DNA from: Vibrio japonicus
GTDB lineage: Bacteria > Pseudomonadota > Gammaproteobacteria > Enterobacterales > Vibrionaceae
Assembly (NCBI RefSeq): GCF_024582835.1
Contig: NZ_CP102097.1
Coordinates: forward strand, 930,001-994,000
DNA length: 64,000 bases
Direction: 5' to 3'
The notes under the pieces are model-generated. The model saw nothing but the letters and a program-made list of their open reading frames with translations, did no database searches and was not told the DNA's origin. Below are positions 5,207 through 56,041 of this stretch, piece by piece. Every line of letters starts with the position of its first letter. The stretch's first letter is position 1. Position numbers and translations under genes: made by a program.

Positions 5207-6781
5207 ATGCAGTCAGTTCAAGGTACCGATGTTATGACATCAACAACAACGAGCTTGCCATCAAGTAAAAATGTATTCATTAAGTGGGCACTGCTTGGCA
5301 GTGTGGGCGTCCTTAATGGTTATGCAACGATTTTAATGTACTCGCGTGGTGAGATGGCGTTTGCGCTGCTTACCCTTATTCTAACCGCACTGGCCTTGTA
5401 TATATTCGGCAGCAAAAAAACGTATGCTCACCGTTATATCTATCCAGGCATCGCGGGTATGATCCTTTTCATCCTTTTCCCACTCGCGTACACAGTCGGT
5501 TTGGCATTCACTAACTACAGTGCCAAAAACCAGCTTACGCTAGAGCGTGCGCAAACCGTTTTGAAAGAGCGCACGTTTCAAAGTGGTGATAGCTACCCAT
5601 TCACGTTGTACAAGACTGAAAACGGCCACCGCATTGCTGTGGAGAAAGGCGATCAACTTTTGGCAACGGATGAATTTAACCTTTCCGCACTTTCAGCTGA
5701 AGATTTTGAATTAACACCCGTTGAGTCTGTTGCCGGTGAAAAAGAGAAGATCAGAGCCATCATTAGCAATAAAGATGCGCTAGGTAGCATTGATCTCCAC
5801 ATGCCATCAGGTGAAGACATCCGTATGAGTGGACTGCGTAAATTTGCGGCGGTCGTTCCTCTCTATACGCTTCAAGAAGATGGTGAATCTCTTTATAACA
5901 ATGAGACAGGCGAAACGCTGCGTCCAAATATGGAAGTGGGTTTCTATCAGCCAGTTGACGAGAACGGTCAATTTATCGGCTCAACGGTTTCACCTGGTTT
6001 TGTGGTAGAGATTGGTACGCACAACTTTGAACGTGTTTGGAAAGATGATGGCATCAAAGAACCGTTTATTAGCATATTTATCTGGACGGTGATCTTCTCT
6101 GCGGTCAGTGTTGCATTGACGGTGATTATCGGTTTGGTGTTAGCCAGTATTGTGCAGTGGGAGGCGCTAAAAGGACGTGCTATTTATCGCGTACTACTGA
6201 TTCTGCCATACGCTGTACCAGCCTTTATCTCTATTTTGATTTTCAAAGGTTTGTTTAACCAAAGCTTTGGTGAAGTGAACATGGTGTTGGAGGCTATGTT
6301 TGGCCTTAGCCCTTCATGGTTCTCAGACCCTTTCCTTGCGAAAACAATGATTATCATTGTGAATACGTGGCTGGGCTTCCCTTACATGATGATTCTGTGT
6401 ATGGGACTACTCAAAGCGATTCCGGACGATCTCTATGAAGCTTCGGCGATTGACGGTTCAAACTTTGTGACAAACTTTACCAAAATCACACTACCCTTGA
6501 TGATTAAACCGCTCACACCTTTATTGATTGCAAGCTTCGCGTTTAACTTCAATAACTTTGTATTGATTCAGCTTCTAACCCAAGGTGGTCCGAATATGAT
6601 TGGCACGTCAGAGCCAGCAGGTTATACGGATCTATTGGTTAACTACACGTATCGAATCGCGTTTGAAGGCGCTGGTGGTCAAGACTTTGGCTTAGCAAGC
6701 GCAATCGCAACACTTATCTTCTTACTTGTGGGTGCACTCGCGTTGCTTAACCTACGTGTAACGAAAGTAGCTCAGGACTAA
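5207..6781 (+). CDS. malF: MalF, maltose ABC transporter permease
   Basis: A 524-aa inner-membrane subunit. The N-terminal helices (residues ~22-105) are followed by a long soluble periplasmic insert (~105-285), the P2 loop that characterises MalF and contacts MalE, and then by the ABC permease core. The EAA coupling loop reads [20 protein letters not shown] around residues 408-427, and contacts MalK. A second in-frame ATG nine codons in (5234) is an equally possible start. It partners MalG. Confidence 0.95.
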
Positions 6782-6792
6782 GGAGGTTCAAA

Positions 6793-7683
6793 ATGGCAAT
6801 GGTACAAGGTAAATCTCTTAAATACCGTGTATGGGCAACCCATATCGCTATGTGGGCATTCCTATCGATGATTATCTTCCCACTATTGATGATCGTAGCG
6901 ATTTCGTTCCGTGAAGGTAACTTCGCAACAGGGAGTATTATTCCGGATAACCCATCCTTGGAGCACTGGAAATTAGCACTTGGTTTCTCGGTCACGAATG
7001 CAGATGGCTCAGTGACACCTCCTCCATTCCCAGTTCTCACTTGGTTATGGAACTCGGTAAAAGTGGCGGGCATTTCGTCTATATTGATCGTTGCTCTGTC
7101 TACCACGTCTGCTTACGCATTTGCCCGTATGAGATTTAAAGGTAAGAACACAATCCTTAAAGCGATGATGATCTTCCAAATGTTCCCAGCAGTACTGGCG
7201 CTAGTGGCACTTTATGCTTTGTTCGACAAACTTGGACAATATATTCCGTTCCTTGGCTTGAACACGCATGGAGGTCTGATTTTCTCTTACTTAGGTGGTA
7301 TTGCACTGCACGTATGGACAATCAAAGGCTACTTTGAAACGATTGATAACTCGCTAGAAGAAGCGGCAGCGCTTGATGGTGCAACACCGTGGCAAGCCTT
7401 TAGATTGGTACTGCTTCCGTTGTCTGTACCGATTCTAGCGGTCGTATTTATTCTTTCATTTATTATGGTCGTAGGCGAAGTTCCGGTAGCATCATTACTA
7501 CTTTCTGATGTAGAATCTTACACATTAGCGGTTGGTATGCAGCAGTATCTCTACCCTCAGAACTATCTATGGGGTGATTTTGCAGCAGCAGCAGTATTGT
7601 CTGCTTTACCAATTACGATCGTATTCTTACTTGCGCAGCGTTGGTTGGTCGGAGGATTAACCGCCGGCGGTGTGAAAGGTTAA
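6793..7683 (+). CDS. malG: MalG, maltose ABC transporter permease
   Basis: A 296-aa permease with six predicted membrane helices and the EAA loop [20 protein letters not shown] near residues 190-209. The length equals the E. coli protein, and the C terminus AGGVKG is the MalG tail that reaches into the MalK dimer. The ribosome site AAGGAGG overlaps the malF stop codon, so the two subunits are probably translationally coupled. Confidence 0.96.
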
Positions 7684-7695
7684 TAAGAACGATAA

Positions 7696-7724
7696 GGGCG
7701 GCCGAGAGGTCGCCCATTTGTTTC
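7696..7724 (+). terminator. Intrinsic terminator after malG
   Basis: GGGCGGCC-GAGA-GGTCGCCC forms an 8-bp stem (one G-T pair) followed by the T-rich ATTTGTTTCT, 12 bases after malG. Confidence 0.75.
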
Positions 7725-8104
7725 TCGACTTAACATCATTTGGTTTGGCCGCCGATCAGTTAAGAAGAAAACACTACTGGCGTTACGCATAGCTGGCTGT
7801 TAGCTAGATTCCTTACTATTTCACTACTAACAGTTTTTGTAACCATAGCCCGAGCAATGCTCGGGCTTTTGTTTTTGTGGCGGTGATTATAAAGGTCTTT
7901 TACTAACCATACTTTTGGTGTGGCAAAGCGTGCGAGGCATTACTCACAGTTATATGTAATGAGTTAGAAGTGACAATAGATTTGTTGACTGGTCTATAAA
8001 TATTGGTGGTTTGGCGCGAGAAAGAGTGGCGAGTGCCAGAAATAAGTTTTAAACGTTTTCAGGAAATGAGCGAAGCCGTCTACCCAATCCCATCATTTAC
8101 ATTC
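7725..8104. other. Gene-free stretch after the mal operon
   Basis: No credible reading frame. It holds a second strong plus-strand terminator (7847-7876) about 165 bases past malG. The 7725-7846 segment could be an untranslated tail or a small RNA, but no promoter stands out. Confidence 0.4.
7847..7876 (+). terminator. Second strong intrinsic terminator downstream of malG
   Basis: AGCCCGAGC-AAT-GCTCGGGCT is a perfect 9-bp stem with a 3-base loop, followed by TTTGTTTTT. It is either a backup for malEFG or the end of an unrecognised short transcript starting within 7725-7846. Confidence 0.8.
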
Positions 8105-8350
8105 TTAAAGCTCTCGGCTTGAAGGTGCGCATCCCATGTATTGCAGCAAAACGTAGATGCTTTCTTGGGAGAGTGCAACGCGACGAAAGAGATCTGCAAA
8201 CGTATCATCCCCACCAAAACACGCCTTGATATAGTGGTTGATTTCGGTATCTGCGTAACCTTCAACATACATAGTGCGAACCCACTGGTATTCAACCGCT
8301 TTTAGGTTAGACAACGTATTTTCACTCAGTGTAACTTCGCTTATGTTCAC
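8105..8350 (-). CDS. Small conserved-looking protein of unknown function (81 aa)
   Basis: Unrecognised. The predicted start is GTG at 8350, chosen because AGGA lies 6 bases upstream. The product is soluble with no signal peptide: a mostly helical N-terminal half (EYQWVRTMYVEGYADTEIN) and a phenylalanine/leucine-rich second half. The ribosome site and protein-like composition make it more likely real than the overlapping frame at 8080-8295. It stands alone on the minus strand between malG and a thioesterase gene. Confidence 0.55.
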   Translation of the reverse strand: MNISEVTLSENTLSNLKAVEYQWVRTMYVEGYADTEINHYIKACFGGDDTFADLFRRVALSQESIYVLLQYMGCAPSSREL

Positions 8351-8426
8351 TCACAGTCCTTTATACAATTATATGTGCTAGAGGATTAAATCAGATCAAT
8401 GTGAATGAATGATGACAGGAAAGTGT

Positions 8427-8450
8427 AAAAAAGAGGCATTAAAGCCTCTT
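8427..8450 (-). terminator. Terminator after the thioesterase gene
   Basis: On the minus strand AAGAGGC-TTTAAT-GCCTCTT runs into a T stretch, 16 bases past the stop codon at 8466. Confidence 0.8.
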
Positions 8451-8465
8451 GCAAGAATTAAAACC

Positions 8466-8951
8466 TTATTTAAGGTACTTAACGTGCGCTTCCATCTCTT
8501 CACCTATTTGTTGACGCATGTTCATAAGGCGGATGGCAGAGTCTCTTAGCTCTATGTCTTCAGGGGTTTCTGGCACCCACTCAGGAACGGAGGTAGGTTT
8601 ACCATTTTCATCGACAGCAACCATAATCACGATGCAGTGCGTAGTTAAACGGTTTTTCAGTTCTTTCGGGTCGCTGGCTTGAACATCAATCGCAATATGC
8701 ATTGAGCTTCGGCCTGTGTAGATCACCTTTGCGCTGACTTCAACGAGGTTACCGACGTGAATCGGCTGAACAAATCGAATTCCGCCAGCGTAGGCAGTAA
8801 TACAGTACTTACCGCTCCATCCTGCCGAGTTTGCGTATGCTGCTAAATCGATCCATTTCATTACGGCGCCACCATGGACTTTGCCGCCAAAGTTTACATC
8901 TCCGGGTTCAGCGAGAAAACGTAGGGTTGTTGTGCGTTGACCAGTGCTCAT
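8466..8951 (-). CDS. Acyl-CoA thioesterase, hotdog fold
   Basis: A 161-aa single-hotdog protein of the cytosolic acyl-CoA hydrolase (YciA/BACH-like) type. The family block GGKVHGGAVMKWIDLAAY, at residues 22-39, contains the helix start and the catalytic-region Asp35; the beta strands RFVQPIHVGNLVEVSAKV and SMHIAIDV follow. The predicted reaction is hydrolysis of acyl-CoA to free acid and CoA; the natural chain length cannot be read from the sequence. It is a single gene with its own terminator. Confidence 0.85.
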   Translation of the reverse strand: MSTGQRTTTLRFLAEPGDVNFGGKVHGGAVMKWIDLAAYANSAGWSGKYCITAYAGGIRFVQPIHVGNLVEVSAKVIYTGRSSMHIAIDVQASDPKELKNRLTTHCIVIMVAVDENGKPTSVPEWVPETPEDIELRDSAIRLMNMRQQIGEEMEAHVKYLK

Positions 8952-9201
8952 CTGTCAATCCTGTATTTGCTATATGTTTATTGTTAATAACAAAATGATT
9001 ACTCACGCGCAACACATATTCGACGGTCGTCTAAGATTTGTTTGGCATGTAATAGATGAAGGAATGAAAGACAGGGGAGAGCAGCAACATGCCGATAGTG
9101 AAGATGTCGTGAATCAGCTTTGGATGCGATCCGGTTCTTATCTGTCGCGTGCGCCCCAGTCCATACGGAATTTGCTTTATTGCATGACTTATTTGCAATG
9201 C

Positions 9202-9408
9202 CTATTTGGATACGTCCTCGTATTCGCCTTCGAGCACAGTGCCATGACTGCTGGTGTTAAACGTAGCCGAGTTGGCCTTACTTTTATTCAGTAATTTTTT
9301 ACCAGTAATGATTGCGAAGATTGTTACTGGTATCGCTAAAATAAGCCCCATCACCAGGGTTAACACACTAATAAATAGTACAACGATACTTGTGATTATT
9401 CTCTTCAT
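9202..9408 (-). CDS. Small membrane protein, unknown (68 aa)
   Basis: Residues 4-36 form one long or two closely packed membrane helices (IITSIVVLFISVLTLVMGLI...), followed by a basic stretch GKKLLNKSK and a polar acidic tail ending EGEYEDVSK. AGAGG lies 7 bases before the ATG. Orientation is predicted with a cytoplasmic tail after the Lys-rich segment. Family not recognised; it resembles small stress or envelope peptides only in layout. Confidence 0.6.
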   Translation of the reverse strand: MKRIITSIVVLFISVLTLVMGLILAIPVTIFAIITGKKLLNKSKANSATFNTSSHGTVLEGEYEDVSK

Positions 9409-9474
9409 AGTGAACCTCTTCTGTTTCGTCTATTAGGCTAATTTATCATCAATGAATCAAAGATGAACAAATGC

Positions 9475-9504
9475 AAAAAAGCCACTTTCAGTGTATGAAA
9501 GTGG
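9475..9504 (-). terminator. Strong intrinsic terminator after the gap-like gene
   Basis: On the minus strand GCCACTTTCA-TACAC-TGAAAGTGGC, a perfect 10-bp stem, is followed by TTTTTT. It lies about 75 bases past the GAPDH stop, beyond another hairpin at 9543-9563. Confidence 0.88.
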
Positions 9505-9542
9505 CAATAACATAGGGATTATTATAAGAGTTGTGGAGGTTT

Positions 9543-9563
9543 GCTCCTGACAGCGCCAGGAGC
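9543..9563 (-). other. Stem-loop just after the gap-like stop codon
   Basis: GCTCCTG and CAGGAGC form a perfect 7-bp stem with a 7-base loop. No T run follows on either strand, so it is likely a 3' stabilising structure upstream of the true terminator. Confidence 0.45.
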
Positions 9564-9576
9564 TTAATTCTTCGAA

Positions 9577-11013
9577 TTATTTGCTAGGGTAAGTTTTGTA
9601 ACGTACGCCCATCATTTGTTCCATACAGTGAACAACCTGGCAGCTGTAACCGAATTCGTTATCGTACCAGATGTACAGTACGCAACGGCTGTCTTGCGCG
9701 ATAGTTGCAGCGCCGTCAACAACACCAGCGAAACGAGAACCCACAAGGTCTGTAGATACAACTTCTGTAGACTCTGTGTAGTCGATTTGCGCTGAAAGCT
9801 CAGACTTTAACGCCATTTCACGTAGGTACGCGTTTAGCTCTTCTTTGTCTGTGCCCTTTTCAAGGTTCAGGTTAGCAATAGCCATAGAAACGTTTGGCGT
9901 TGGTACACGAATCGCGTTGCCTGTTAGTTTGCCCGCAAGCTCAGGTAGTGCTTTCGCTACCGCTTTCGCAGCGCCAGTTTCTGTCAGTACCATGTTTAGC
10001 GATGCACTACGGCCACGACGCTCGCCTGAGTGGAAGTTATCAATCAGGTTTTGGTCGTTAGTGAATGAGTGAACAGTTTCGATATGACCTGATGTCACAC
10101 CATACTTATCATTCATCGCTTTTAAGATTGGTGTAATAGCGTTGGTCGTACAGCTTGCTGCAGAAACGATCTTATCTTCTGGCAGGATAACATCTTGGTT
10201 AACGCCGAATACTACGTTCTTAATGTCGCCTTTACCTGGAGCAGTAAGCAGAACTTTTTCCGCACCTTTACAATCCAAGTGTTGGCTAAGGCCGTCAACG
10301 TCACGCCAAACACCAGTGTTGTCAACAATAAGAGCGTTGTTAATGCCAAAGCTAGTGTAGTCCACTTCTTCTGGCTTGTTCGCGTAGATGAACTGGATGT
10401 AGTTACCATTCGCGATGATTGCTTTGCGCTCTTCATCTACGATGATGCTGCCGTTGAATTGACCATGAACAGAGTCACGACGTAGTAGGCTTGCACGCTT
10501 CTCTAGGTCGCCTTTCTTACCACCACGTACAACAACAGCACGCAGACGAAGTGGGTAACCTGGACCGCTTTTCTCAACTAATAGTCGAGTCAGTAGTCGG
10601 CCGATACGACCAAAACCATAAAGGACAACATCACGTGGTTCGCTAACAGTTTGACCATCCATTGCGCCTAGTAGCTGGCTATGAAGGAAGTCTTTAACAC
10701 CGTGTTCGTCGTCACGACCTTGCCAAAACTCATGCGCCAACTGGCCAACATCGATACGGCATGGAGACAGTTCCATTTCCGAAAGTGCTTTGATAAGAGG
10801 AAGAGTTTGCTCTGGAGAGAGAGGAGTACCTGTGTAGCGGCGAGCTAGACGGTGAGTCTTGATAATATCAATTGTCGCTGCATTCACTAGCGTTTTACCA
10901 AAAAGTAAAACTTCTACGCCTTTCTGACGGTAAAGCTGACCAAGTAGTGGCGAGATGATTTCCGCAATCGTTTGGCTAGTTTGCCAGTCTAGTAGATGTT
11001 TCTCTGGACTCAT
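9577..11013 (-). CDS. Long glyceraldehyde-3-phosphate dehydrogenase variant
   Basis: A 478-aa GAPDH-family protein, about 140 residues longer than GapA. Residues 1-125 form an extra mostly helical N-terminal domain. The Rossmann motif YGFGRIGRLLTRLL begins near residue 130, and the active-site block SCTTN has its nucleophile at Cys288, followed by VHSFTNDQ with the catalytic His equivalent. The C-terminal block IWYDNEFGYSCQV is standard. The strand after the nucleotide loop reads RAVVVRGGKKG, without the acidic residue typical of NAD-specific GAPDH. Known family reaction: oxidative phosphorylation of glyceraldehyde-3-phosphate. Whether this paralogue works glycolytically, gluconeogenically or on another aldehyde is unknown. 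Monocistronic, with a 600-base upstream region. Confidence 0.85.
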   Translation of the reverse strand: MSPEKHLLDWQTSQTIAEIISPLLGQLYRQKGVEVLLFGKTLVNAATIDIIKTHRLARRYTGTPLSPEQTLPLIKALSEMELSPCRIDVGQLAHEFWQGRDDEHGVKDFLHSQLLGAMDGQTVSEPRDVVLYGFGRIGRLLTRLLVEKSGPGYPLRLRAVVVRGGKKGDLEKRASLLRRDSVHGQFNGSIIVDEERKAIIANGNYIQFIYANKPEEVDYTSFGINNALIVDNTGVWRDVDGLSQHLDCKGAEKVLLTAPGKGDIKNVVFGVNQDVILPEDKIVSAASCTTNAITPILKAMNDKYGVTSGHIETVHSFTNDQNLIDNFHSGERRGRSASLNMVLTETGAAKAVAKALPELAGKLTGNAIRVPTPNVSMAIANLNLEKGTDKEELNAYLREMALKSELSAQIDYTESTEVVSTDLVGSRFAGVVDGAATIAQDSRCVLYIWYDNEFGYSCQVVHCMEQMMGVRYKTYPSK

Positions 11014-11645
11014 TTTTCGTTGGACCTTTCGCTTTTGGGGACTGACTCTACCCGCGTTGTAGGGGAGGCGAGTAGAGCTTGGAATATATTGTATTCATTT
11101 TGTAATTTTTATGGGGCAGGATTGTAAGCCCACCTCCCCTTATTCTGCTAGTAAAAATAATGATAGGTGAATACGCTGTTAACGCGGAGCTTTGTAGCGA
11201 TATTAGCTGTAAATTTGTCGTCGTTTGGACTATTGACAATAAAAAAGTGTGCTAGTTAATTTTCATCAAAAAATACCAATAGCACTTTAATGGCGGTAAT
11301 GAATGAAAATTTACGTATTCATTTGTGACTACAAGTGCATTACAAACAGAAATGGTAAACGAAAAAAGGCACTATGCAGTGAGTGTGGTTACAAAGTTGA
11401 TATTTGCCCGTTTAGACCATGAAAACGCGAGGAAATTTTTGTATTTCTTTGAACTGAGTGAGTGTTTCTTATGCGCTCTACAAACTAAGTTTGCATGGTT
11501 TGGTTCAAAGTGACGGAAATTCACAGAGGATAATGAGAGAGATTTGGTTGTTTACACGCCACCAACACGTTTGAATGTTGGCAGCGTCAGGCATTATTTG
11601 AGTAGCGGCTAAATTTAAAGTGACGCCTCAGCGTTGCAGCAAGAA
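11014..11645. other. Gene-free stretch upstream of the gap-like gene
   Basis: No convincing gene. On the minus strand AGGGGAGG (about 11133-11142) and CCTCCCCT (about 11061-11068) could pair in the leader of the gap-like mRNA. On the plus strand TTGACA at 11233-11238 with TTAATT about 17 bases later resembles a sigma-70 promoter, but nothing recognisable lies downstream. Short frames here lack ribosome sites. Confidence 0.35.
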
Positions 11646-36851: not shown

Positions 36852-37052
36852 ATGAGTGATTTCGAAAAAGAACTTGAGCTAATGTCGCAAGAAATGGGTG
36901 ATGAACCTGAAGTGGCACTGCCTTCACTGGAAGAGCAGAAAGCGATTGCTGCTGAACTTAAAAAGCTGGAAGCAGAAGGCAAGCTGACGCCAGAAGTGCT
37001 TGAAGCGCATTTCGGTAAATTTTACGCCAAGACAGATACGCCGATTCACTAG
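36852..37052 (+). CDS. Small acidic helical protein (66 aa), unknown
   Basis: A highly charged, Glu/Lys-rich protein predicted to be mostly helical (LEEQKAIAAELKKLEAEGKL), with no signal peptide or membrane segment. It begins only 22 bases after the chemoreceptor terminator, so it relies on read-through or a promoter inside that region; AAAGG is 11 bases upstream of the ATG. Followed by its own terminator. No function recognised. Confidence 0.7.
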   Translation: MSDFEKELELMSQEMGDEPEVALPSLEEQKAIAAELKKLEAEGKLTPEVLEAHFGKFYAKTDTPIH

Positions 37053-37092
37053 TATCGGATTCTTACCTTTTAAGTAAGAAAATCAAATTATT

Positions 37093-37117
37093 AAGGTCGC
37101 TTATTGCGGCCTTTTTT
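37093..37117 (+). terminator. Terminator at the left edge of the accessory island
   Basis: AAGGTCGC-TTATT-GCGGCCTT (one T-G pair) followed by TTTT. It isolates the island from the upstream core genes. Confidence 0.85.
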
Positions 37118-37427
37118 ATACTAAAAATTTAATGATGGCGATAAAGTGGCGGTAGTCATGGTACGTGTTTGTCAGGGTGTCTTAGTCGATAAGATTCGTA
37201 AAACTACGGTTTTTTACTTCCATCTTTTAAGTTGCGGATTGACATAGTAAATAGCACTTTAACTGTGTATAAAAACAGGTCAACCGATGTAAAATGAACA
37301 GCAATCTTCATCAGTGAAATGAATCTCGAAGATTGGTTTGATTTGTAATCTATCAGGATAACCAATAATGGCAATTTACGAGTAAGTCTGTAAAATACGC
37401 CGGCTAAGTTTTTTATGAGTGGTTTGA
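37118..37427. other. AT-rich leader region of the accessory island
   Basis: No gene of useful length. It holds TTGACA (37239-37244), an SOS-box-like palindrome (37263-37278), and two minute frames: MAIYE with AGGA in front (37368-37385) and MSGLNDN (37415-37438), which overlaps the methyltransferase start by 11 bases. These may be translation-controlling leader peptides or chance. Confidence 0.45.
37263..37278 (+). promoter_or_regulatory. LexA/SOS box-like operator upstream of the methyltransferase
   Basis: CTGT-GTATAAAA-ACAG fits the gamma-proteobacterial LexA rule CTGT-N8-ACAG exactly, with a TA-rich centre and the favourable flanks AA before and GT after. It begins 18 bases after TTGACA, where LexA would cover the -10 region of that promoter. 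The start of the methyltransferase gene lies 150 bases downstream. Confidence 0.65.
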
Positions 37428-38609
37428 ATGACAATTAAAGCGATAGATTTATTTGCTGGCGCTGGTGGTTTTACACTTGCTGCACTTGATGCAGGGGTAG
37501 ACGTGCTTGCAGCTATCGAGTTTGATAAGGCGGCTGCTCACACGTATAAAGAAAACTTTATCAACGCTCGCAAGCAAAAAATTGACTTACGTGCCGGAAA
37601 AGACTTTGGTGATATCAACAATGTAGCTCCTTTAGAGCTACGAGAGAGCTTAAATCTAAAGAAGGGGGAATTAGATTTGATATTGGGTGGTCCTCCATGC
37701 CAAGGCTTCTCTACACATCGTATTAAAGGTGCTGGTGTTAACGACCCACGTAATGCTCTGCTGCTTAGATATTTTGAGTTTGTTAATGAATTCAACCCCA
37801 AAGCTTTCTTAGTTGAGAACGTCGCAGGCTTGTTGTGGGAACGCCATAAAGACTTTTTAGATAAGTTTATCTCTCTTGCTGAAGATGCAGGTTATATCAT
37901 CAAGTTCTGTGGCATTGTGAACGCGAAGGATTATGGAGTACCACAGAATAGAAAGCGTGTCTTTATCTATGGATTGCGCCAAGATTTAGATAGAGATGAT
38001 GATCATGTTTTCCCTCCTGAGCCAACTCATTTTTCTGAAGCAAGTGGGAAACGCCCTCTATGGGAAACTGCATCTAGTGTTTTTGAAAAAATTCCTAAAG
38101 ACTTATACGAACAGTATTGGGAAGAATATTTTAAGAACAAAACGAAGTACTCATATGAGCAAACAATGGATCTTCTTAGCTCTCTTACACCTGGCAGAAA
38201 GGTTGAAGAAGATGATCTATGTAATGTTCACATGCAGCCTACTGCTAAGATGATGGAGCGGTTTTCAGATACCCCCCTTAATGGTGGTCGTGAAGATGCT
38301 GGAGAAAAGCACCGACTAAAGTGTCATTCTGGTGAGTACAAAGGTCATAAAGATGTTTATGGGCGTATTTTGATCCATCTGCCAAGCAATACTATCACCA
38401 CTGGTTGTAATAACCCGTCAAAGGGTCGATTTGTTCACCCGTGGTTAAATCATGGGATGACATTACGGCATGCAGCGAGGTTACAGTCTTTCCCTGACGA
38501 GTTTAATTTTTATGGAAGCTCAACGGAAAAAGCCCGGCAAATTGGTAATGCAGTACCGCCATTACTTGGTAAAGTACTGATAAGTGACATATGCAGTAGA
38601 TTGAATTAA
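37428..38609 (+). CDS. DNA (cytosine-5) methyltransferase
   Basis: A 393-aa Dcm-type enzyme with all key motifs: I DLFAGAGGFT (residues 7-16, S-adenosylmethionine site), IV GGPPCQGFS (~88-96, catalytic Cys), VI ENVAG (~127-131), VIII QNRKRV, IX RHAARLQSFPDEF and X QIGNAVPPLLG. It should methylate cytosine C5 in a short, unknown target; the specificity region (~200-320) does not resemble Dcm. No Vsr gene follows. Start has only a weak AGTGG ribosome site. Base composition is more AT-rich than the flanks, suggesting transfer. A terminator separates it from the ATPase pair. Confidence 0.94.
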   Translation: MTIKAIDLFAGAGGFTLAALDAGVDVLAAIEFDKAAAHTYKENFINARKQKIDLRAGKDFGDINNVAPLELRESLNLKKGELDLILGGPPCQGFSTHRIKGAGVNDPRNALLLRYFEFVNEFNPKAFLVENVAGLLWERHKDFLDKFISLAEDAGYIIKFCGIVNAKDYGVPQNRKRVFIYGLRQDLDRDDDHVFPPEPTHFSEASGKRPLWETASSVFEKIPKDLYEQYWEEYFKNKTKYSYEQTMDLLSSLTPGRKVEEDDLCNVHMQPTAKMMERFSDTPLNGGREDAGEKHRLKCHSGEYKGHKDVYGRILIHLPSNTITTGCNNPSKGRFVHPWLNHGMTLRHAARLQSFPDEFNFYGSSTEKARQIGNAVPPLLGKVLISDICSRLN

Positions 38610-38612
38610 ATA

Positions 38613-38641
38613 AAGTGCCTACAATGTTAGGCACTTTTTTT
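38613..38641 (+). terminator. Terminator between methyltransferase and GHKL ATPase genes
   Basis: AAGTGCCTA-CAATGT-TAGGCACTT is a perfect stem followed by TTTTTTA. It ends four bases after the methyltransferase stop region and only 18 bases before the next ATG. Confidence 0.88.
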
Positions 38642-38658
38642 ATAGATAACCATCTGAT

Positions 38659-41600
38659 ATGACAGAAAAACCAACAAAGAGATCTGTTTCTTTCAAGGCA
38701 CAAGCACGAACGATAGATCATCTAGGTAAAGGTCAAATTGCCGATGCCCCAACGGCTGTCAGTGAGCTTTGGAAGAACTCTTACGACGCCTATGCTCGGA
38801 ATGTAGCTTTGCACTTATTCGATGGCGATATCAAATGCGGTGCCATAATTGATAACGGTTGCGGCATGACATACGACCAGCTTATTAATAGTTGGCTGAC
38901 TGTTGGCACTGCTTCGAAAACTCAGAAGAAATTACTTCCAGAAGAAGATAGATTCGGTCTTGATGACAGATTTACACAGGGTGAAAAAGGAATTGGTAGA
39001 TTATCTACAGCATTTCTTGCACCAGTAACGCTGATCGTGACAAAAAAAATGAACACTAGGTTTTCAGCTGTACTGATCGATTGGCGTTTATTTGAAAACA
39101 CTTATCTTGGCCTGAATGATATTAAAGTGCCTATGGAAGAGTTTGATAGCTTGGAGCAGTTGCCAGAAATATGTTCTGGCTTACAAAAAGAGATGATCTC
39201 GAATCTTGCGTTAGAACCTGAAACAGAAGACGAGAAACTTCTACGTCGAATGTGGGAACTATTCACTGTAGACGAGAAAGAAGCGTTTGAATTACGTCAC
39301 AATCCAAATAGTAAAGAGCTGTTTGTTTCTACAGAAGACAAAGTTAGGGACCTGTGTCATAACTTTAAGTTCAATGTAGACTTCACTGATAGCTGGCTAC
39401 CATTGCTAACGAAAGTTGAAGAATTAGATGGTTCGCAGCATGGTACGGCATTGTACTTGTTAGATCTTGGAAGAGACTTAGAGCTACTTACTAATCGTGG
39501 AGATATGAGTAGAGACTCATCCGAATATCAAGATGTCCAGACAGACTTAGTCGATACACTCAGAGCATTTGTTGACCCATTTAATCGACATAGAACGATT
39601 AATAACGAGTTTTATTACGAGATAATTGGGTTTGATTCGTATGGGTATTCGTTGGGTGAAGAAAACATAATTCTAAATTATGAAGATGTATTTGGATACG
39701 AGCAATTTGAAACCTTAGAACATCGAGTCGAAGGCAGTATAGATGAAAAAGGGTGGTTTAGAGGAAAAGTAACAGCGTTTGGAAAAGATCACTCAGATGT
39801 AGTAATTCCTTGCCGCTCACCTGGTATGGATATTTATACGAAAACTGGATCATTTGACTTAAAGTTTGGTTCATTTGAATTTGAAATTTCAAAGTCAACG
39901 CATGATGTTGACCACCATCTACTCCTCAGAGACCAGGCTGAAAAATACGCAGGGTTTATGATATTCCGTGATGGTCTAAGAGTTTTACCTTATGGTAGAA
40001 CAAACAATGATTTTTTTGGAATAGATGAGCGTCGAAACAAAAATGCAGGCCGGTACTATTGGGCTACTCGACGAATGTTTGGTCAAATTGAATTAGACCA
40101 AAAAAAGAATAAGCGCTTGATTGATAAAGCTGGTCGAGAGGGGTTTGTTAAAAACCAAGCGGCTAGAGAACTAAAAGCGCTGGTTATGAACCTTCTTGTC
40201 CACGTTGCAGATAGCTATTTTGGTACTAAATCTGATGAACGTAAATCAGTTTTAGAACAATTATCTAAGGATAAAAAAAGGCAGAATAGAGCTCGTAATT
40301 CATCAGCTAAAATCACTAAACAAGCATTTAACCATGCATTAGAAACCAATCTTCCGAAACTGAATATACAAGTTGAAAATGCTCGTAACGTTCATAAAGA
40401 GCTTGAAAAAGGCATAGAAGTTTCTCTGCATCATTTAGATGAGTTGGCGTCCCAGATTGATAAACTAGAATCTCTACGCCCAGATCTAAAGGCTCCAAAT
40501 AAGCCCGCAAAATTAAGTGATTCTCAAGAAGTACAATATCGTAGCTACCGTGACCTTTTTGGTGAGCTAAGCGAATTGCTGCAAACATGTCGTGAACGTT
40601 TAAACAAAATTGAATCGCTTAGCCAGCAACGAAGCCCAATGGAAAGTGCACAAAATAAATATGACTCAAGTGACGCTGCTATTTCAAAGCAAGTTAATCG
40701 CTATGCCAAAGCGATAGACAGTACGCTAGAACGTCTTCAAGCCACTTGGAAGCATGAAGTCCGAATGGATCGGGATGCTTACAAGAATCAGGCTATAAAT
40801 ATTTTGGATGCCGTTACTAACTCCAGTGATACTGAGTTTGTTCTCAATGAGCTTGATAAAGTGTATAGAGAGTTAGCCGATGATATTTCGACAAAATATG
40901 AAGGCTTTCTATTTGCTTTAGAAAAGTTGGAACGGGGTGTTGATATTGAATCCGCATTCAATCTTGCAGAAGAGGAAAGAGAGAATGCTGAACGAGAAAT
41001 TAACCAGATTCGTAATCTAGCTCAACTGGGGATTAGTTTTGAAATTCTTGCACATGAGTTGAGTGCACAGGATAAAGCGGTAACTCGTTCTCTAAACTCT
41101 ATGAGTTCCGACGCAAAAAAAGAAATTGGCTTTAAGAATGCGATGCGAGCACATAAGCAATTTACAGATTATTTGCGCTTTTTATCGCCTCTAAAACTAT
41201 CAGGTTATCAAGTTAGAGATGATATACATGGTCTAGATATAGTTAAAAATATAGCAAACTTCTTTACTGATCAGTTTGAAAAGCAAAATGTACATCTAAA
41301 TATTAGTGATTCATTTAAACGAATGAAAATAGTCGATGTGCAGTCTCGAATTATCCCAGTGTTTATTAACTTGGTTAACAATGCTCTGTATTGGGTAGGA
41401 ATGGCAGAAGGCGAACGTAAAATCAAAATTGATATCATCAACGATTTGGTTGTTATAGCTAACAACGGGCCTGCAATAGATCCGGAGGATGTGAAAAATC
41501 TCTTCCAGCTTTTTTATAGCCGGCGCCCGAATGGGAACGGTGTAGGTTTATACCTGTCACGACAGAACTTAGCTGTTGCTCGTCATAAAATATGGTACGC

Positions 41601-41676
41601 AGAAAACCCAGAAGAAAAGCTTATTAAGGATGGGGCCAATTTTGTTATTCAGTTTCGCGAAATGGAAGTAAAATAA
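38659..41676 (+). CDS. MORC/Hsp90-like ATPase fused to a histidine-kinase-like module
   Basis: A 1005-aa cytoplasmic protein with two different GHKL ATP sites. The N-terminal one has Glu36 and Asn40 in ELWKNSYDA, DNGCGM at 65-70 and GEKGIGR at 108-114, the pattern of Hsp90/MutL/MORC-type ATPases. Residues ~530-790 are largely coiled-coil. Near 793-802, FEILAHELSA resembles a histidine-kinase H-box with His799. The C terminus is a kinase-type ATP lid: Asn907/908 (NLVNNALYW), NNGPAID (935-941, an Asn where kinases have Asp), FQLFYSRR and GNGVGLYLSR (959-968). No Shine-Dalgarno precedes the ATG. Its stop codon abuts the next start. A sensor ATPase role in phage defence is inferred from the methyltransferase neighbour and published prokaryotic MORC associations with restriction-modification loci. 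Confidence 0.85.
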   Translation: MTEKPTKRSVSFKAQARTIDHLGKGQIADAPTAVSELWKNSYDAYARNVALHLFDGDIKCGAIIDNGCGMTYDQLINSWLTVGTASKTQKKLLPEEDRFGLDDRFTQGEKGIGRLSTAFLAPVTLIVTKKMNTRFSAVLIDWRLFENTYLGLNDIKVPMEEFDSLEQLPEICSGLQKEMISNLALEPETEDEKLLRRMWELFTVDEKEAFELRHNPNSKELFVSTEDKVRDLCHNFKFNVDFTDSWLPLLTKVEELDGSQHGTALYLLDLGRDLELLTNRGDMSRDSSEYQDVQTDLVDTLRAFVDPFNRHRTINNEFYYEIIGFDSYGYSLGEENIILNYEDVFGYEQFETLEHRVEGSIDEKGWFRGKVTAFGKDHSDVVIPCRSPGMDIYTKTGSFDLKFGSFEFEISKSTHDVDHHLLLRDQAEKYAGFMIFRDGLRVLPYGRTNNDFFGIDERRNKNAGRYYWATRRMFGQIELDQKKNKRLIDKAGREGFVKNQAARELKALVMNLLVHVADSYFGTKSDERKSVLEQLSKDKKRQNRARNSSAKITKQAFNHALETNLPKLNIQVENARNVHKELEKGIEVSLHHLDELASQIDKLESLRPDLKAPNKPAKLSDSQEVQYRSYRDLFGELSELLQTCRERLNKIESLSQQRSPMESAQNKYDSSDAAISKQVNRYAKAIDSTLERLQATWKHEVRMDRDAYKNQAINILDAVTNSSDTEFVLNELDKVYRELADDISTKYEGFLFALEKLERGVDIESAFNLAEEERENAEREINQIRNLAQLGISFEILAHELSAQDKAVTRSLNSMSSDAKKEIGFKNAMRAHKQFTDYLRFLSPLKLSGYQVRDDIHGLDIVKNIANFFTDQFEKQNVHLNISDSFKRMKIVDVQSRIIPVFINLVNNALYWVGMAEGERKIKIDIINDLVVIANNGPAIDPEDVKNLFQLFYSRRPNGNGVGLYLSRQNLAVARHKIWYAENPEEKLIKDGANFVIQFREMEVK

Positions 41677-43584
41677 ATGCCTGAATTATATAGAAATAAA
41701 ATTGTAGAAGCATTTCGTGACAATGCTATTCGATCTGTTTTACTTATTGATGATGAGTATTTGCCATTTGAAAATCTGGTTGCTACGAGCACTTCATTTC
41801 GCGATGAATTAGAGTCTATTTCTGGTGATGTTAATCCTACTATTTCAGGTAAAGAAGTAGTTTATCAAGCTAAATTGAGTCGATTACGAACTCTGCTAAA
41901 GCAAGCAAGTAGTACTCTAATGAGATCTGACGTTGCTAAAGACTTTGTTAGTTTCTTTCATCAGAAACGACTTATCTGTGATGTTGAAGATAGAACAGAT
42001 AGTTTAGATAAAGATAAGGTTCGAAAGAGTGATCTTATTGTTTTAGATTATTATCTACAGAAACCTGGCGTGACAAATAACCCTGCCGAATATTCTCTCA
42101 AGCTTATTGACGAATTAAGTGAAAGTAAGCACATGAATATCGTAGTTGTTTATACTAAAGAGAATCTTGATGATGTGTGGTTTGAAGTTGCGGCCACGTT
42201 ACGTGGCAGTTATGAGAGTGATATAGAAGCCTTCTTATCTGACCCAGAACTATATGATGAATGGAAAAACAACCAACAAGACTGGGAAGGTGAATGGGCT
42301 CACATTGTTTCAAAAGGTATACATGAGAAATTCTTAAAATCTGAACATAACTTGAACCAATTAACTCAAGGTCTATGCGATGCATGTGATGACAAAGGTT
42401 ATGAACACCCCCAATCAAAACATGTTGAGTGGTTACTAGAGCAAGCAATTAAGCCATATAATAAGAATAATTGTCCTACTTCTACGTTTGAAATTCACGG
42501 TAAACGTAAAAAGTGGTTACAAGCTGGAGATGTGTTTGTTGTCTTTTGTAGTAAAGATACTGGTGAAGGTGACCAAAGGCGAGATACAACCCCAGAAGAG
42601 GTTTGGGAACTCATTCAGGAAACCTTGATTGATTGGTATCCTAGCTTTTACCGTGTAGTTACATCGGAGTTACAAAACCAGATTGAAGATGCTAATCTTT
42701 CGATGGAAAAAGTGTTAGCCGCAGGGAATACTGAACAGATAGCTTCTCTATGGGGGGTCTTAAGAGTAGAAGACTCTTTACGAGAGCAAGCCAGTAAAGA
42801 GTTGCTAAACAACTTACTTAATGATGTCGTTGATAAGATTCAAAATAGTTCAGAGTTGCTTAAGTTTATAACAGAAACAGCTAATAGTGTTGATGATAAT
42901 TTACCAGAGTTTATTAGCTTCGAAACTAATAAAGAAAGACATCAAAACTATCTACAGAATATAGTTGAGTCAGCGAGTAAAAACCTAAAAGTTCCCGAAG
43001 AAAAAGTAACTAAAGAATTTCGCGGACAGGTTCTACATGCCTTTAATGAACAACTTAGTATAGAAAAAGAATTACCCGATCATATTTCTACGGGCGTTAT
43101 TCTTAAAGATACAGAAGAAGGTTCTTATTACTTATGCATCGCACCGAGTTGTAACACTGTGCCAAAACAAACTACGGGAGAGGTAGCCAAGCGAATGAAA
43201 CCGCATAGGCCAATGCGATTTATAAGAATGGCTAACGTGACCAATAAATTATTGGATAAACTAAAAGTTGCTCATCAATCTGACGTTATATTTGTGAGTG
43301 ATAATGGTGAAAGACTAGCACTTGGAATTTATGAAAGTAATGACGTTCCTACTATCGAACAAGGTGTCGTAGTTCATCACGACACTGCTCTAATTGCGTC
43401 TGGGGAAACCAAAGATGTACAATTTTTGATAACGAACCCTGAAACTTCACTCTTAGAAGTAGTCACTAGGAAATTCAAACTTGTAGCCAAGCTTCGCCCA
43501 GCATTTTCATCTCGATACCAAAATTATCAAATACAATATGAAGCTCGTATTGGGGTGGATTTGGTAAGTGCCAATATGAAATAA
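41677..43584 (+). CDS. Receiver-like domain protein paired with the GHKL ATPase
   Basis: A 635-aa protein. Its N terminus looks like a response-regulator receiver: the strand SVLLIDDEY with Asp25-Asp26, the strand LIVLDYYL with candidate phospho-acceptor Asp124, and VVVYTKE with Thr160. The spacing between the acidic pair and Asp124 is 98-99 residues, about twice the normal value, so there is an insertion (~30-110) or a divergent fold. Residues ~170-635 match nothing recognised; no nuclease, helicase, HTH or membrane motif is seen. GGAAG is 8 bases upstream of the ATG, which directly follows the ATPase stop, so the pair is translationally coupled and probably forms a complex or a phosphotransfer pair. 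Confidence 0.75.
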   Translation: MPELYRNKIVEAFRDNAIRSVLLIDDEYLPFENLVATSTSFRDELESISGDVNPTISGKEVVYQAKLSRLRTLLKQASSTLMRSDVAKDFVSFFHQKRLICDVEDRTDSLDKDKVRKSDLIVLDYYLQKPGVTNNPAEYSLKLIDELSESKHMNIVVVYTKENLDDVWFEVAATLRGSYESDIEAFLSDPELYDEWKNNQQDWEGEWAHIVSKGIHEKFLKSEHNLNQLTQGLCDACDDKGYEHPQSKHVEWLLEQAIKPYNKNNCPTSTFEIHGKRKKWLQAGDVFVVFCSKDTGEGDQRRDTTPEEVWELIQETLIDWYPSFYRVVTSELQNQIEDANLSMEKVLAAGNTEQIASLWGVLRVEDSLREQASKELLNNLLNDVVDKIQNSSELLKFITETANSVDDNLPEFISFETNKERHQNYLQNIVESASKNLKVPEEKVTKEFRGQVLHAFNEQLSIEKELPDHISTGVILKDTEEGSYYLCIAPSCNTVPKQTTGEVAKRMKPHRPMRFIRMANVTNKLLDKLKVAHQSDVIFVSDNGERLALGIYESNDVPTIEQGVVVHHDTALIASGETKDVQFLITNPETSLLEVVTRKFKLVAKLRPAFSSRYQNYQIQYEARIGVDLVSANMK

Positions 43585-43628
43585 AGAAAGCGGCTATAAT
43601 CAGTTATTACTATTTAAGTTTCTGTTCT

Positions 43629-43654
43629 AAAGCCGCATAATGCGGCTTTCTTTA
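43629..43654 (+). terminator. Terminator at the right edge of the accessory island
   Basis: AAAGCCGCA-TAA-TGCGGCTTT perfect 9-bp stem followed by CTTTAT, 45 bases after the receiver-like gene. Confidence 0.85.
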
Positions 43655-43686
43655 TAATGGCAACTCTTCAATTGTTTGGAAGCCCC

Positions 43687-43809
43687 ATGTTCATTGTTTA
43701 CCGACTACTTAAACTGGCCGCGATTTGTGCGGTTTTCTTCTCTATCTACGACTTGATTGCCTTCGGCGAAATCACTTGGGTATCTCGTTTTCTGAGTGAG
43801 TTTAAGTAA
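43687..43809 (+). CDS. Putative 40-aa membrane peptide
   Basis: A short frame, MFIVYRLLKLAAICAVFFSI then YDLIAFGEITWVSRFLSEFK. It has one predicted membrane helix (residues ~8-27), positive charges before it, GGAAG 5 bases upstream of the ATG, and a perfect terminator starting two bases after its stop. These three points support a real small gene; function unknown. Confidence 0.5.
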   Translation: MFIVYRLLKLAAICAVFFSIYDLIAFGEITWVSRFLSEFK

Positions 43810-43810
43810 C

Positions 43811-43837
43811 AAAAAACCGCCAGCTGGCGGTTTTTTT
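43811..43837. terminator. Bidirectional terminator between the 40-aa ORF and pyrC
   Basis: AACCGCCAGCTGGCGGTT is a perfect palindrome flanked by A run on the left and T run on the right, thus active on both strands for the convergent genes. Confidence 0.92.
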
Positions 43838-43866
43838 ATTAAAGTGGCAGGTTGTGGTTGTCGAAG

Positions 43867-44895
43867 TTACTTAACCGTCCAGCCGATGGTTTCACCTGCT
43901 CGGATTGGCACAACAATGTCGTCGCCAAATGGCATGCTTTCTGCGACTGGCCATTCTTCTTTTGTCAGAGTGACGGTGTCTGAATTGCGTGGAACGCCGT
44001 AGAAGTCTGGGCCATTGTGGCTGGCAAATGCTTCTAAGTTTTCCAGCTTACCTTCCAGTTCGAACACTTCTGCGTACAGCTCCAATGCAGCATGAGCCGT
44101 GTACGAACCCGCACAGCCACATGCGGCTTCTTTATTGCCTTTTGCGTGTGGTGCTGAGTCTGTGCCCAAGAAGAACTTTTTGCTTCCGCTTGTTGCTGCT
44201 TCAATCAGCGCTTTTTGGTGGGTATTGCGTTTAAGAATCGGCAGGCAGTAGAAGTGTGGCTTGATACCACCAACCAGCATGTGATTGCGGTTGTAAAGCA
44301 GGTGGTGCGCAGTAATCGTTGCGGCAACATTGTCACCTGCGTTGCTAACGAACGTCGCGGCATCAGCGGTTGTGATGTGCTCTAAAACAATTTTTAGATT
44401 AGGGAAGTCGTTAACGATTGGGGCAAGAACGGTATCAAGGAACTCTTTCTCTCGGTCAAAAATATCGACATCATGAGTGGTAACTTCGCCGTGTACCAAC
44501 AGTAGCATGTCCACTTCTTGCATCGCTTCTAGCACATGGTAAATGTTTTTCGCTGAAGTCACACCGGAATCGGAGTTTGTGGTTGCGCCCGCTGGATAAA
44601 GTTTTGCAGCGACGACTTTGCCCGATGCTTTTGCTTTACGAATTTCATCCGGAGTTGTGTTATCGGTGAGGTAAAGCGCCATAAGCGGCTCAAATTGATC
44701 AGAAGGCTTCTGCGCCATAATGCGGTCGCGGTATGCCAGCGCCATTTCTGTTGTGGTTACAGGTGGGATTGTGTTTGGCATGATAAGCGCTCGTCCATTG
44801 TAGCGGCTGATGTCACGCACAGTATCCTTTAAAACGTCACCGTCGCGAAGATGAACATGCCAGTCGTCAGGACGTGTAATCGTAAGTGTTGTCAT
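43867..44895 (-). CDS. pyrC: Dihydroorotase PyrC (class II)
   Basis: A 342-aa zinc amidohydrolase of pyrimidine synthesis, converting carbamoyl-aspartate to dihydroorotate. Metal ligands begin with the HVHLRD motif at residues 13-18; [17 protein letters not shown] carries the carbamylated Lys, and VHGE, HITT and GTDSAPH supply the rest. ATG at 44895 is used since GGGAG is 6 bases upstream; the 39-residue extension of the longest frame has no ribosome site. Pseudo-PurR box upstream. Single gene, core-genome position. Confidence 0.95.
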
Positions 44896-53891: not shown

Positions 53892-54926
53892 ATGATTTCG
53901 AAAACCATAAAAATGCCTAGAACACTGTATGGAGACGCGACGGGCATCGCACCGGGTTTATTACTCAGTATTGTAATAGCCGCAGCGGCAACGTTTGTTT
54001 CTGATCACTACGGCGGTCCTAAGTTTCTTTATGCACTATTACTGGGTATTTCTCTGCATTTTCTCTCTGACCATGAAAAATGTGGCGCTGGCATTGAGTT
54101 TGCGGCTAAGAAATTGGTTCGAATTGGTGTTGCCTTATTAGGTGTACGCATTGCCTATAGCGATGTCAGCACTATAGGACTTGATGGCGTAGGTATTCTA
54201 GCAGGTGCTGTAGTACTGACGATCTTGTTCAGCCTATTGTTCGCAAAGTTACTTAATGTTTCTGGCACATTTGGGTTACTTGCAGGTGGCGCAACGGGGA
54301 TCTGCGGTATTTCAGCAGCGATGGCGATTTCATCTACGATTCCACAGAGCAAAGAGAACGAGCAATATACATTAATGACGGCTATTGGTGTCGCTGCGTT
54401 TTCAACGATTGCCATGATTCTTTATCCATTTGTAGTCACTTCACTACAGTTATCACCGAGTGAAGCGGGCATGTTTTTGGGTGGATCCATTCATGATGTC
54501 GCTCAGGTAGTCGGCGCGGGCTTTATGCTATCAACCGAGATCGGGGATGCGTCAACATTAGCGAAAATGTTCCGAGTCGCGATGTTAATGCCAGTGATAT
54601 TGTTAATTGCATTGTCGTTCCGTGCTCAGAGACAAAGTGATGGCCAAGAATCGCGTATTAACGCACCAATAATACCGTTCTTCCTGATGGTGTTTATTGC
54701 ACTGATTGTCATCAATAGCTTTAACCTAGTACCTCCTTCAGTGTCAGAAGGTATGTCTGAGATTTCTAAGTGGTGTCTCGTTATTTCTATTGCCGCTCTA
54801 GGCGTAAAAACATCATTTGAGAAGCTTTTCTCTCTAGGATGGAAACCAATTATATTGCTTTTATTTAATGCAATGTTTATCGCTGGATATATGTTGACGG
54901 TTATTTATATTCAGAGAATGGTTTAA
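53892..54926 (+). CDS. YeiH-family (UPF0324) putative sulfate exporter
   Basis: A 344-aa membrane protein with about ten helices. Blocks GISLHFLSDHEKCGAGIEFAAK (split: ISLHFL, CGAGIEFAAK), VRIGVALLGVRI and LAGGATGICGISAAMAI match YeiH. In several taurine degraders a member of this family exports the sulfate formed from sulfite; that role is inferred here from position 65 bases after xsc. AGAGG is 8 bases before ATG 53892, which is preferred over the GTG at 53883. Confidence 0.82.
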   Translation: MISKTIKMPRTLYGDATGIAPGLLLSIVIAAAATFVSDHYGGPKFLYALLLGISLHFLSDHEKCGAGIEFAAKKLVRIGVALLGVRIAYSDVSTIGLDGVGILAGAVVLTILFSLLFAKLLNVSGTFGLLAGGATGICGISAAMAISSTIPQSKENEQYTLMTAIGVAAFSTIAMILYPFVVTSLQLSPSEAGMFLGGSIHDVAQVVGAGFMLSTEIGDASTLAKMFRVAMLMPVILLIALSFRAQRQSDGQESRINAPIIPFFLMVFIALIVINSFNLVPPSVSEGMSEISKWCLVISIAALGVKTSFEKLFSLGWKPIILLLFNAMFIAGYMLTVIYIQRMV

Positions 54927-55166
54927 TTATTATTTAATGAATTTAATAGTAATGACACATTAATATATCGATCGGAAGAATATAAATCCGGTGTGATAAT
55001 CCCAAGTTTAGGCAAGGTGAATAGCAACAACCTTAGACGAGTATAATAAAAACTCCTTTCAACAATGGAAGTTTACGGAATGCCGATATTGGGTTTTCGT
55101 GAAGTCAATGAATAGCTATTAATGTTTACCCTCGGCAAATATAAATTACTAAAGGAGTGAAAATCC
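54927..55166. other. AT-rich spacer after yeiH-type gene
   Basis: 240 bases with no gene. Contains AAGGAG of the next small gene at its end and no obvious terminator. Confidence 0.4.
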
Positions 55167-55355
55167 ATGAGTGCATTAAATAAAACGACAATGACTGTTG
55201 AGGAAAAAATGACGAATATAGATTCTGAATCTAGTTCGGAAAATAACTCAGAACGTCAAAATAGTGAAATTAGAAATGGTCTTAAAGTCAATGTTTTTGA
55301 TAGAAAACTAGAACAATATGGGCGTACGTATAATCAAGATTTTGACTTTGATTAA
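55167..55355 (+). CDS. Small polar protein of unknown function (62 aa)
   Basis: A soluble, acidic protein rich in Ser, Asn and Glu (SESSSENNSERQNSEIRNG), predicted largely disordered and ending DFDFD. AAGGAG lies 9 bases before the ATG. Its position between sulfonate genes suggests a locus-specific role, but no family is recognised. Confidence 0.5.
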   Translation: MSALNKTTMTVEEKMTNIDSESSSENNSERQNSEIRNGLKVNVFDRKLEQYGRTYNQDFDFD

Positions 55356-55615
55356 AAAATGAGCTGTGAAAAATAAACAAGCGTTTGAATTATCAGTTGA
55401 TGGTCAACGCCTTTAAAAATAACTAGGTCAATAATTAAATTATAAAATGCTCAATATGTGAGCTTGGAGTTTGTACATACCATAACTGAAAGTTAGAGTA
55501 GGGGGTTGTTATAAAAAAGTTAACCTCCTGTAGTAGTGTAAATATTCTAATAAGACGGCAGCATAGTACTGCCCTGTATTAAACCAATAACGAAAACAGA
55601 AAAGGATTCTGAAAC
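55356..55615. promoter_or_regulatory. Probable control region for tauX
   Basis: 260 bases without a gene before tauX. No clear palindrome; AAGGATT is 12 bases before the tauX start. Confidence 0.35.
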
Positions 55616-56041
55616 ATGAACATGCAAACCAATACCGCAACATTATTGCAGGAAAACCAAGTCGACACGGCATTTTTGCAGTCTTTTAGTGATGCTTGGA
55701 ATAACCACGACATTGACGCCTTAATGTCATTTATGACTGACGATTGTGTCTTTCACACAGTCGCAGGAGATGGCTTGCTTGGAAACACTATCGAAGGATA
55801 CGAAGCGGTTCGCAATAGCTTCGAATCGGTTTGGCAGAATTTCCCAGATGCAGCTTGGAGCGATCCAGTGCACTTTGTTTGCGGAGATCGTGCAGTATCA
55901 GAATCAACTTTCTCAGCTACCAATCCAGACGGTACGGTAATTGAAGCACGTATGGTGGACGTATTTACTCTGCGTGATGGAAAAATCAGTGTAAAAAATG
56001 CCTTTAGAAAAGCTCGACCAGTAATCACACCCAACAAGTAA
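55616..56041 (+). CDS. tauX: Taurine dehydrogenase small subunit TauX (NTF2/SnoaL-like fold)
   Basis: A 141-aa SnoaL/NTF2-like protein (FSDAWNNHDIDALMSFMTDDC, GDGLLGNTIEGYEAVRNSF; strands DRAVSESTF, DVFTLRDGKISVKNAFRK). It directly precedes the large-subunit gene, as tauX precedes tauY in published taurine degraders. Assignment rests on gene order and fold more than on a unique motif. Confidence 0.72.
   Translation: MNMQTNTATLLQENQVDTAFLQSFSDAWNNHDIDALMSFMTDDCVFHTVAGDGLLGNTIEGYEAVRNSFESVWQNFPDAAWSDPVHFVCGDRAVSESTFSATNPDGTVIEARMVDVFTLRDGKISVKNAFRKARPVITPNK

Follow-up and report, generated by a model that had tools for sequence, protein, structure and literature searches.

Paired proteins carrying the HEF_HK and Response_reg_2 domains, together with their link to a DNA methylase, were described in 2021 by Bellieny-Rabelo et al. 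(PMC8011034), who announced both domains for Pfam and whose starting point was raised expression in a plant pathogen. The accessible text of that paper holds neither a test of function nor an effector for the pair, and its authors speculated that the pair is a signalling system regulating restriction-modification (R-M) genes. Literature searches turned up no later functional assay of the pair, and the accessible part of the 2026 DefensePredictor paper (PMC13092281) has 'HATPase' and 'REC' in a legend of predicted, unvalidated systems, from which a match to the pair cannot be told. We analyzed a three-gene cassette in a 64,000-nucleotide stretch of Vibrio japonicus DNA (contig NZ_CP102097.1, positions 930,001 to 994,000), the whole of which is called the window. 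An earlier note on this DNA had proposed an undescribed methyltransferase-GHKL-receiver system; the word "undescribed" had to be given up, as the pair and its methylase link were already in the 2021 paper. Several features of that pair were present: Response_reg_2, an N-terminal HATPase_c_3 and a C-terminal HATPase_c in one protein, adjacent genes and a C5-methylase. With a probability of about 0.5, the cassette is a mobile methylase-linked defence unit combining a methylase mark, a clamp-kinase relay and a toxin-fold effector. The parts of this mechanism established here are the anatomy, the conservation, the exchange and the fold resemblance only. The cassette features were as follows.

37208..37427, plus strand: region 5' of the methylase gene that moves with it, candidate promoter region (85% DNA identity with locus L061)
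37428..38609, plus strand: C5-cytosine DNA methyltransferase, 393 amino acids (aa) (PF00145, DNA_methylase, 4.9e-63; TIGR00675, 3e-50)
38612..38641, plus strand: terminator-like hairpin, module-exchange boundary (minimum free energy -13.6, z -4.4, 0 of 200 shuffles as good)
38659..41676, plus strand: MORC/MutL-like ATPase plus histidine kinase, 1005 aa (HATPase_c_3 and HATPase_c)
38752..39096, plus strand: N-terminal GHKL ATPase, residues 32-146 (HATPase_c_3, PF13589, 2.4e-13, 50.7 bits, over cut-off)
41023..41196, plus strand: HEF_HK region with phospho-His H799, residues 789-846 (PF19191, 2.9e-4, below cut-off)
41341..41658, plus strand: C-terminal kinase catalytic domain, residues 895-1000 (HATPase_c, PF02518, 9e-15, 55.5 bits, over cut-off)
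41677..43584, plus strand: receiver protein, 635 aa (Response_reg_2, PF19192, 8.2e-20, residues 18-185)
41728..42642, plus strand: receiver domain with a large insertion, residues 18 to ~322
43081..43545, plus strand: C-terminal barrel, residues 469-623, proposed effector (CcdB/MazF-like predicted fold)

Domains and invariant residues of the three proteins

Related loci, all found via the receiver protein, came from genome contigs (n = 26), one viral contig and, for the rest, family searches of the genus, family, order and class. Fifty-five cassette stretches were fetched, of which L089 and L090 duplicated L008 and L015, leaving 53 loci with the window included; L066 (family match below cut-off, wrong-strand frame) and the sub-threshold L081, L082 and L084 were left out. 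Co-variation was examined in the 43 complete cassettes among these 53 loci, omitting L006 (receiver broken into two frames), L055 (kinase in two frames), L023 (methylase interrupted, in two pieces), L017, L018, L019 and L029 (no adjacent methylase) and L024, L026 and L030 (distant methylases).

The methylase, a feature of Type II R-M systems by its PF00145 and TIGR00675 matches, was complete as the earlier note had claimed, and motifs I, IV, VIII, IX and X were located. Six methylases among the 43 failed the PPCxG pattern and were not taken as inactive because they carry APCQ or SPCQ in its place.

Two GHKL ATP sites had also been read correctly in the 1005-aa protein. Within it N40, D65, G67, G69, G108 and K110, the intact GHKL motifs of paraMORC/MORC proteins, were identical in all 43 cassettes, as were G111, G113, K490, H799, N904 and N908; the kinase glycines at 959-963 were kept in 42 and fell in a gap in the remaining cassette. 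The HEF_HK match reached 21.7 bits, below its cut-off of 24.1, and H799 within it was kept throughout. The invariant K490 is only suggestive as a hint of an S5 domain after the GHKL part. Solved relatives detected by sequence were sensor kinases at residues 860-985 (3a0t, 2.2e-7) and PMS2 over residues 17-80 (0.0028), and in PADLOC 2.0.0 the kinase matched JetC only (2.8e-4). Domain models detected no nuclease in the cassette proteins, in agreement with the earlier note as far as domains go; the nuclease-named BbrUII/HgiDII model and the MutL models matched nothing but the GHKL part and scored far under their cut-offs. An unrecognised nuclease could still be present.

The receiver gene starts 1 base past the stop codon of the kinase gene. 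Its product, which had been noted to abut the kinase and to have a receiver-like N terminus, matched Response_reg_2 with 72.1 bits against a cut-off of 27. D25, D26, D124 and T160 were identical in 43/43 cassettes, while K293 was aligned in 36 and fell in gaps in seven; at the other end of the protein, G473, C492, R624 and G626 were likewise found in all 43. Structure prediction suggested a CcdB/MazF-like fold for the C-terminal domain, which fits a relay with its effector at this end of the protein, as the earlier note had allowed. No sequence-level link to CcdB/MazF toxins was found for this domain, and no DNA-binding family matched it in Pfam. The whole protein gave no match to solved structures by sequence (one chance-level hit, E 1.3) or to PADLOC 2.0.0 models. 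The idea that the C-terminal domain is common elsewhere was rejected, as a profile search gave seven proteins, 95-279 aa long and clearly all from the same family, two of them bearing the label partial. The receiver alignment (A2) held 86 of 120 homologues listed. Between the window and L008, and between L005 and L008, kinases were 71-73% identical and receivers only 35-36%; the receiver protein may at times be replaced or evolve much faster.

Methylase exchange and the internal hairpin

Kinase and receiver identities varied together across the 43 cassettes (rho 0.92), and methylase and kinase identities did so weakly (0.21, p 0.02), with a value of 0.13 (p 0.19) among 17 Vibrionaceae loci. 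Kinase and receiver trees shared 31 of 40 splits, compared with 8 for methylase and kinase and 7 for methylase and receiver. The methylase data rejected the kinase topology. The exact kinase tree was also rejected by the receiver data, and the exact receiver tree by the kinase data; the kinase-receiver pair is thus not perfectly locked either. Methylases were at least 70% identical in 54 pairs of loci, in 31 of which the kinases were less than 40% identical, and kinases only 25-31% identical were found with methylases 87-93% identical.

The clearest case of methylase exchange was L067/L071, from two genomes of one genus. The upstream flank and methylase had 84-90% DNA identity up to +1197; beyond this the kinase and receiver genes were unrelated (26 and 13% protein identity), and a homologous flank resumed no more than 50 bp after the receiver gene. 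The reverse swap was seen in L068/L069 (kinase 94%, receiver 93%, methylase 59%). The nearest relatives of the window genes were taken from an earlier set of 36 loci including L006, the receiver value of which is meaningless there. The window methylase was nearest to that of L061 (87%), the kinase of which is 31% identical to the window's, and the window kinase was nearest to those of L006 and L005 (89 and 86%), with methylases 77 and 74% identical. At the DNA level the window and L061 were 85% identical from -219 to +1217, despite the dissimilar kinases. As judged from these sequences, the methylase is exchanged freely between cassettes.

DNA similarity ended just past the internal hairpin in L067/L071 and also in window/L061, save that the start of the kinase gene gave a short match of lower similarity. 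The hairpin lies directly 3' of the methylase stop (AAAGTGCCTA-loop-TAGGCACTTT, then a T-run). Of the 39 loci that have the methylase 5' of the kinase, 17 carried this hairpin or a variant of it, with several kinase types. A T-A pair was changed to A-T with pairing kept in L056, L060 and L087, and degenerate forms occurred in L006 and L010. A scan of the other 22 loci, chiefly outside Vibrionaceae and including L054, L057 and L070, found no hairpin of the same kind; in many of these it is missing because the methylase and kinase genes often overlap. With a terminator at this point the methylase would be produced ahead of the kinase and receiver, as would make sense for a cell that has to protect itself.

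The free exchange of the methylase makes it probable that this enzyme, as mark or reader, decides the target and that the kinase does not. Kinase pairs with differing methylase recognition regions (n = 10) were compared with pairs with similar ones (n = 43) at comparable kinase identity; no 25-residue window of the kinase differed by more than 0.19 and none collapsed. This comparison, in which the 10 pairs are not independent because they were drawn from two clades, argues against a recognition segment in the kinase itself but does not exclude one. The natural swaps L067/L071 and L054/L068 could be used directly to learn whether a sensor needs its matching methylase, a question that bears on how DNA-marking defences gain new specificities.

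These observations also weigh on the proposal that the 1005-aa protein is a sequence-specific GHKL restriction enzyme of BbrUII/HgiDII type that reads the methylase's site, with the receiver as control subunit. The best NCBIfam match of its N-terminal GHKL part was indeed NF050001, BbrUII/HgiDII (1.3e-16, residues 17-153). However, the match stops at residue 153 with 60 of the 550 bits required, a separate nuclease domain was not found, highly dissimilar kinases serve closely similar methylases, and no kinase segment tracks the methylase recognition region. We consider this explanation unlikely.

The same methylase was also found with another partner. Its family (E up to 1e-60) was present in 14 of 196 Vibrio genomes, 11 of which also carry Response_reg_2. 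In all three without it (L157, L158 and L159) an ABC/OLD-like ATPase of 616-629 aa was convergent with the methylase (about 5,900-11,600), and in one of the three a transposase-like gene lay between the two. The ATPase matched PADLOC HEC-04 (8e-35 to 7e-38), ATPase-Toprim and many weaker ATPase models. In the tree, the three methylases fell within the diversity of those from kinase-receiver cassettes, their exact positions having low support. Because the methylase pairs with either, the kinase-receiver pair and the ATPase appear to fill the same slot, and the pairing supports reading the kinase-receiver pair as the restricting arm. L157 had, beside its methylase-ATPase pair, a gene of HNH type and one that is transposase-like.

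Distribution, neighbourhood and insertion site

The co-occurrence on which the earlier note had staked its case held in these receiver-selected loci. The kinase adjoined the receiver gene in 53/53. The methylase came directly next in 48/53; in L009 it lay one gene further on, in L018 it was the fourth gene along, and the stretches of L017, L019 and L029 showed none. The called kinase frame of L019 was without its first 137 residues. One genome (G1001) carried two cassettes (L087 and L094) with different kinase-receiver types, each with its own methylase. Family searches detected relatives in 12/196 genomes of the genus Vibrio, 13/197 of the family, 14/394 of the order (12 over cut-off) and 5/369 of the class (4 over cut-off). 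One relative was present among viral contigs and two distant ones among plasmids; phage records held none at 1e-5. Near-DNA searches of plasmids matched flanking genes only, and such a search of complete E. coli genomes with a Citrobacter query found none, a result that concerns close DNA only and does not show absence.

Flanking genes (n = 251; 100-1000 aa, up to three per side, own open reading frame calls) were collected from 51 of the 53 loci, leaving out the window and L010. Among the families listed, the 25 commonest in each half of these genes, Vsr accounted for 15 genes and every other family for at most four per half; no constant fourth gene, whether nuclease or helicase, recurred like Vsr. 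PADLOC matches included models of methyl-directed restriction enzymes, AbiE, DRT, SoFic, JukB and MzaA. The earlier expectation of defence-enriched loci stood insofar as several flanking genes matched defence families; made without a background control, this count is not a measured enrichment.

This neighbourhood bears on the 2021 speculation (PMC8011034) that the pair is a signalling system regulating R-M genes, without an effector of its own. Such a role would suit the conserved His and Asp and the R-M enrichment of the neighbourhood. It is opposed by the lack of any restriction enzyme as a constant neighbour, only Vsr (15/251) recurring strongly among the families listed and HNH_2 matching 3/125 genes in one half while not being among the families listed in the other. 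In addition, the window insertion holds no further R-M gene, and the C-terminal domain of the receiver protein resembles a toxin in its predicted fold and gave no match to any DNA-binding family. We therefore regard this role as improbable.

The borders of the cassette in the window were as follows.

36852-37052: left neighbour, 66-aa gene
37093..37118, plus strand: left-border terminator-like hairpin, 3' of the 66-aa gene (minimum free energy -12.5, z -4.2, T-run)
43629..43655, plus strand: right-border terminator-like hairpin (minimum free energy -12.6, z -2.7, T-run; 3 of 200 shuffles equally good)
43687-43809: right neighbour, 40-aa membrane peptide, then pyrC

The AT-rich block and the terminator-like hairpins bounding it between the small gene and the membrane-peptide/pyrC pair were recovered as first noted; 2-kb windows within 37001-44000 had a GC content of 0.36-0.40 and adjoining ones 0.44-0.49. 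A second AT-rich dip was seen at 54001-56000 (GC 0.392). The host genome (4.24 Mb, three contigs) held a single full kinase copy. For the insertion site, 60 of the 61 genus members gave a pyrC match, and 16 of these stretches were read. Six had an empty site with the order chemoreceptor-like gene, 66-aa gene, membrane peptide, the last two separated by 64-80 bp that contain a single terminator-like hairpin; the other 10 had a different spacing or order, lacked one gene in the stretch or ended early. At the same site in the window the two small genes are ~6.6 kb apart with a hairpin on either side. From this difference the cassette is one clean insertion of ~6.6 kb, and the accessory island, borne out by the empty sites, is exactly the three-gene cassette. 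In L129 (genome G007), ~10 kb of other genes lay between the 66-aa gene and pyrC, and the neighbourhood of the site is therefore rearranged in that genome.

A mobile insertion with empty sites, a patchy presence (12/196 Vibrio genomes) and a toxin-like predicted domain would also be expected of a selfish addiction element, in which a cell that loses the methylase has its DNA left unmarked, the clamp-kinase responds to that DNA and the toxin domain is set free, the cassette being kept regardless of phage. However, addiction of this kind would call for machinery identical to that of defence and is compatible with it, and several flanking genes match defence families. We give little weight to addiction as the explanation of the cassette.

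Proposed mechanism and comparison with known systems

In the defence unit that we favor, the methylase would mark host copies of its target, as expected from its family, and target choice would probably reside in it. The 1005-aa protein joins a MORC/MutL-type ATPase, a long middle part and a histidine kinase, and may act as an ATP clamp. Engagement of unmarked or foreign DNA would close the clamp, leading to phosphorylation of the conserved H799 and transfer to the conserved D124. Phosphotransfer would release the C-terminal domain of the receiver, with its predicted CcdB/MazF fold, and the released domain may halt growth, either by cutting RNA or as a poison of gyrase or some other target. 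The hairpin directly 3' of the methylase stop would keep the kinase-receiver arm low during methylase production. It is possible, though doubtful, that this amounts to restriction without a dedicated nuclease, in which an exchangeable methylase gives specificity to a sequence-blind MORC-clamp kinase that releases a toxin domain, and the terminator serves as both throttle and recombination joint. If true, a toxin-fold effector on a response regulator and a MORC-type clamp-kinase would join epigenetic marking, two-component signalling and growth-arrest toxins in three genes.

The kinase has an N-terminal GHKL segment similar to that of the BbrUII/HgiDII restriction enzymes (NF050001), the match being confined to residues 17-153. 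Detocs is a phosphorelay defence in which two-component logic is used against phage. The cassette would share that logic; neither kinase nor receiver gave a Detocs match in PADLOC 2.0.0, a release whose Detocs models were not checked. Unlike the CcdB/MazF toxins, the cassette domain is joined to a receiver domain and has its own invariant residues (G473, C492, R624 and G626). The paraMORC GHKL proteins (Iyer et al. 2008, PMC2292703), in the accessible text, likewise have the GHKL ATPase at their N terminus and are encoded close to DNA methylases and Vsr-type endonucleases. They are found with helicases, and their C termini are nucleases, TIR domains or others, whereas the C terminus of the cassette kinase is a histidine kinase. 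The closest likeness is to the HEF_HK/Response_reg_2 pair, which shares domain order, adjacency, the conserved His and Asp and the upstream C5-methylase; the proposed effector, methylase exchange, internal terminator-like hairpin and insertion site are given here and not in the accessible text of PMC8011034. Overall, the system is genuine and had already been named, and the proposal made here for how its parts work is more specific than any in the papers found.

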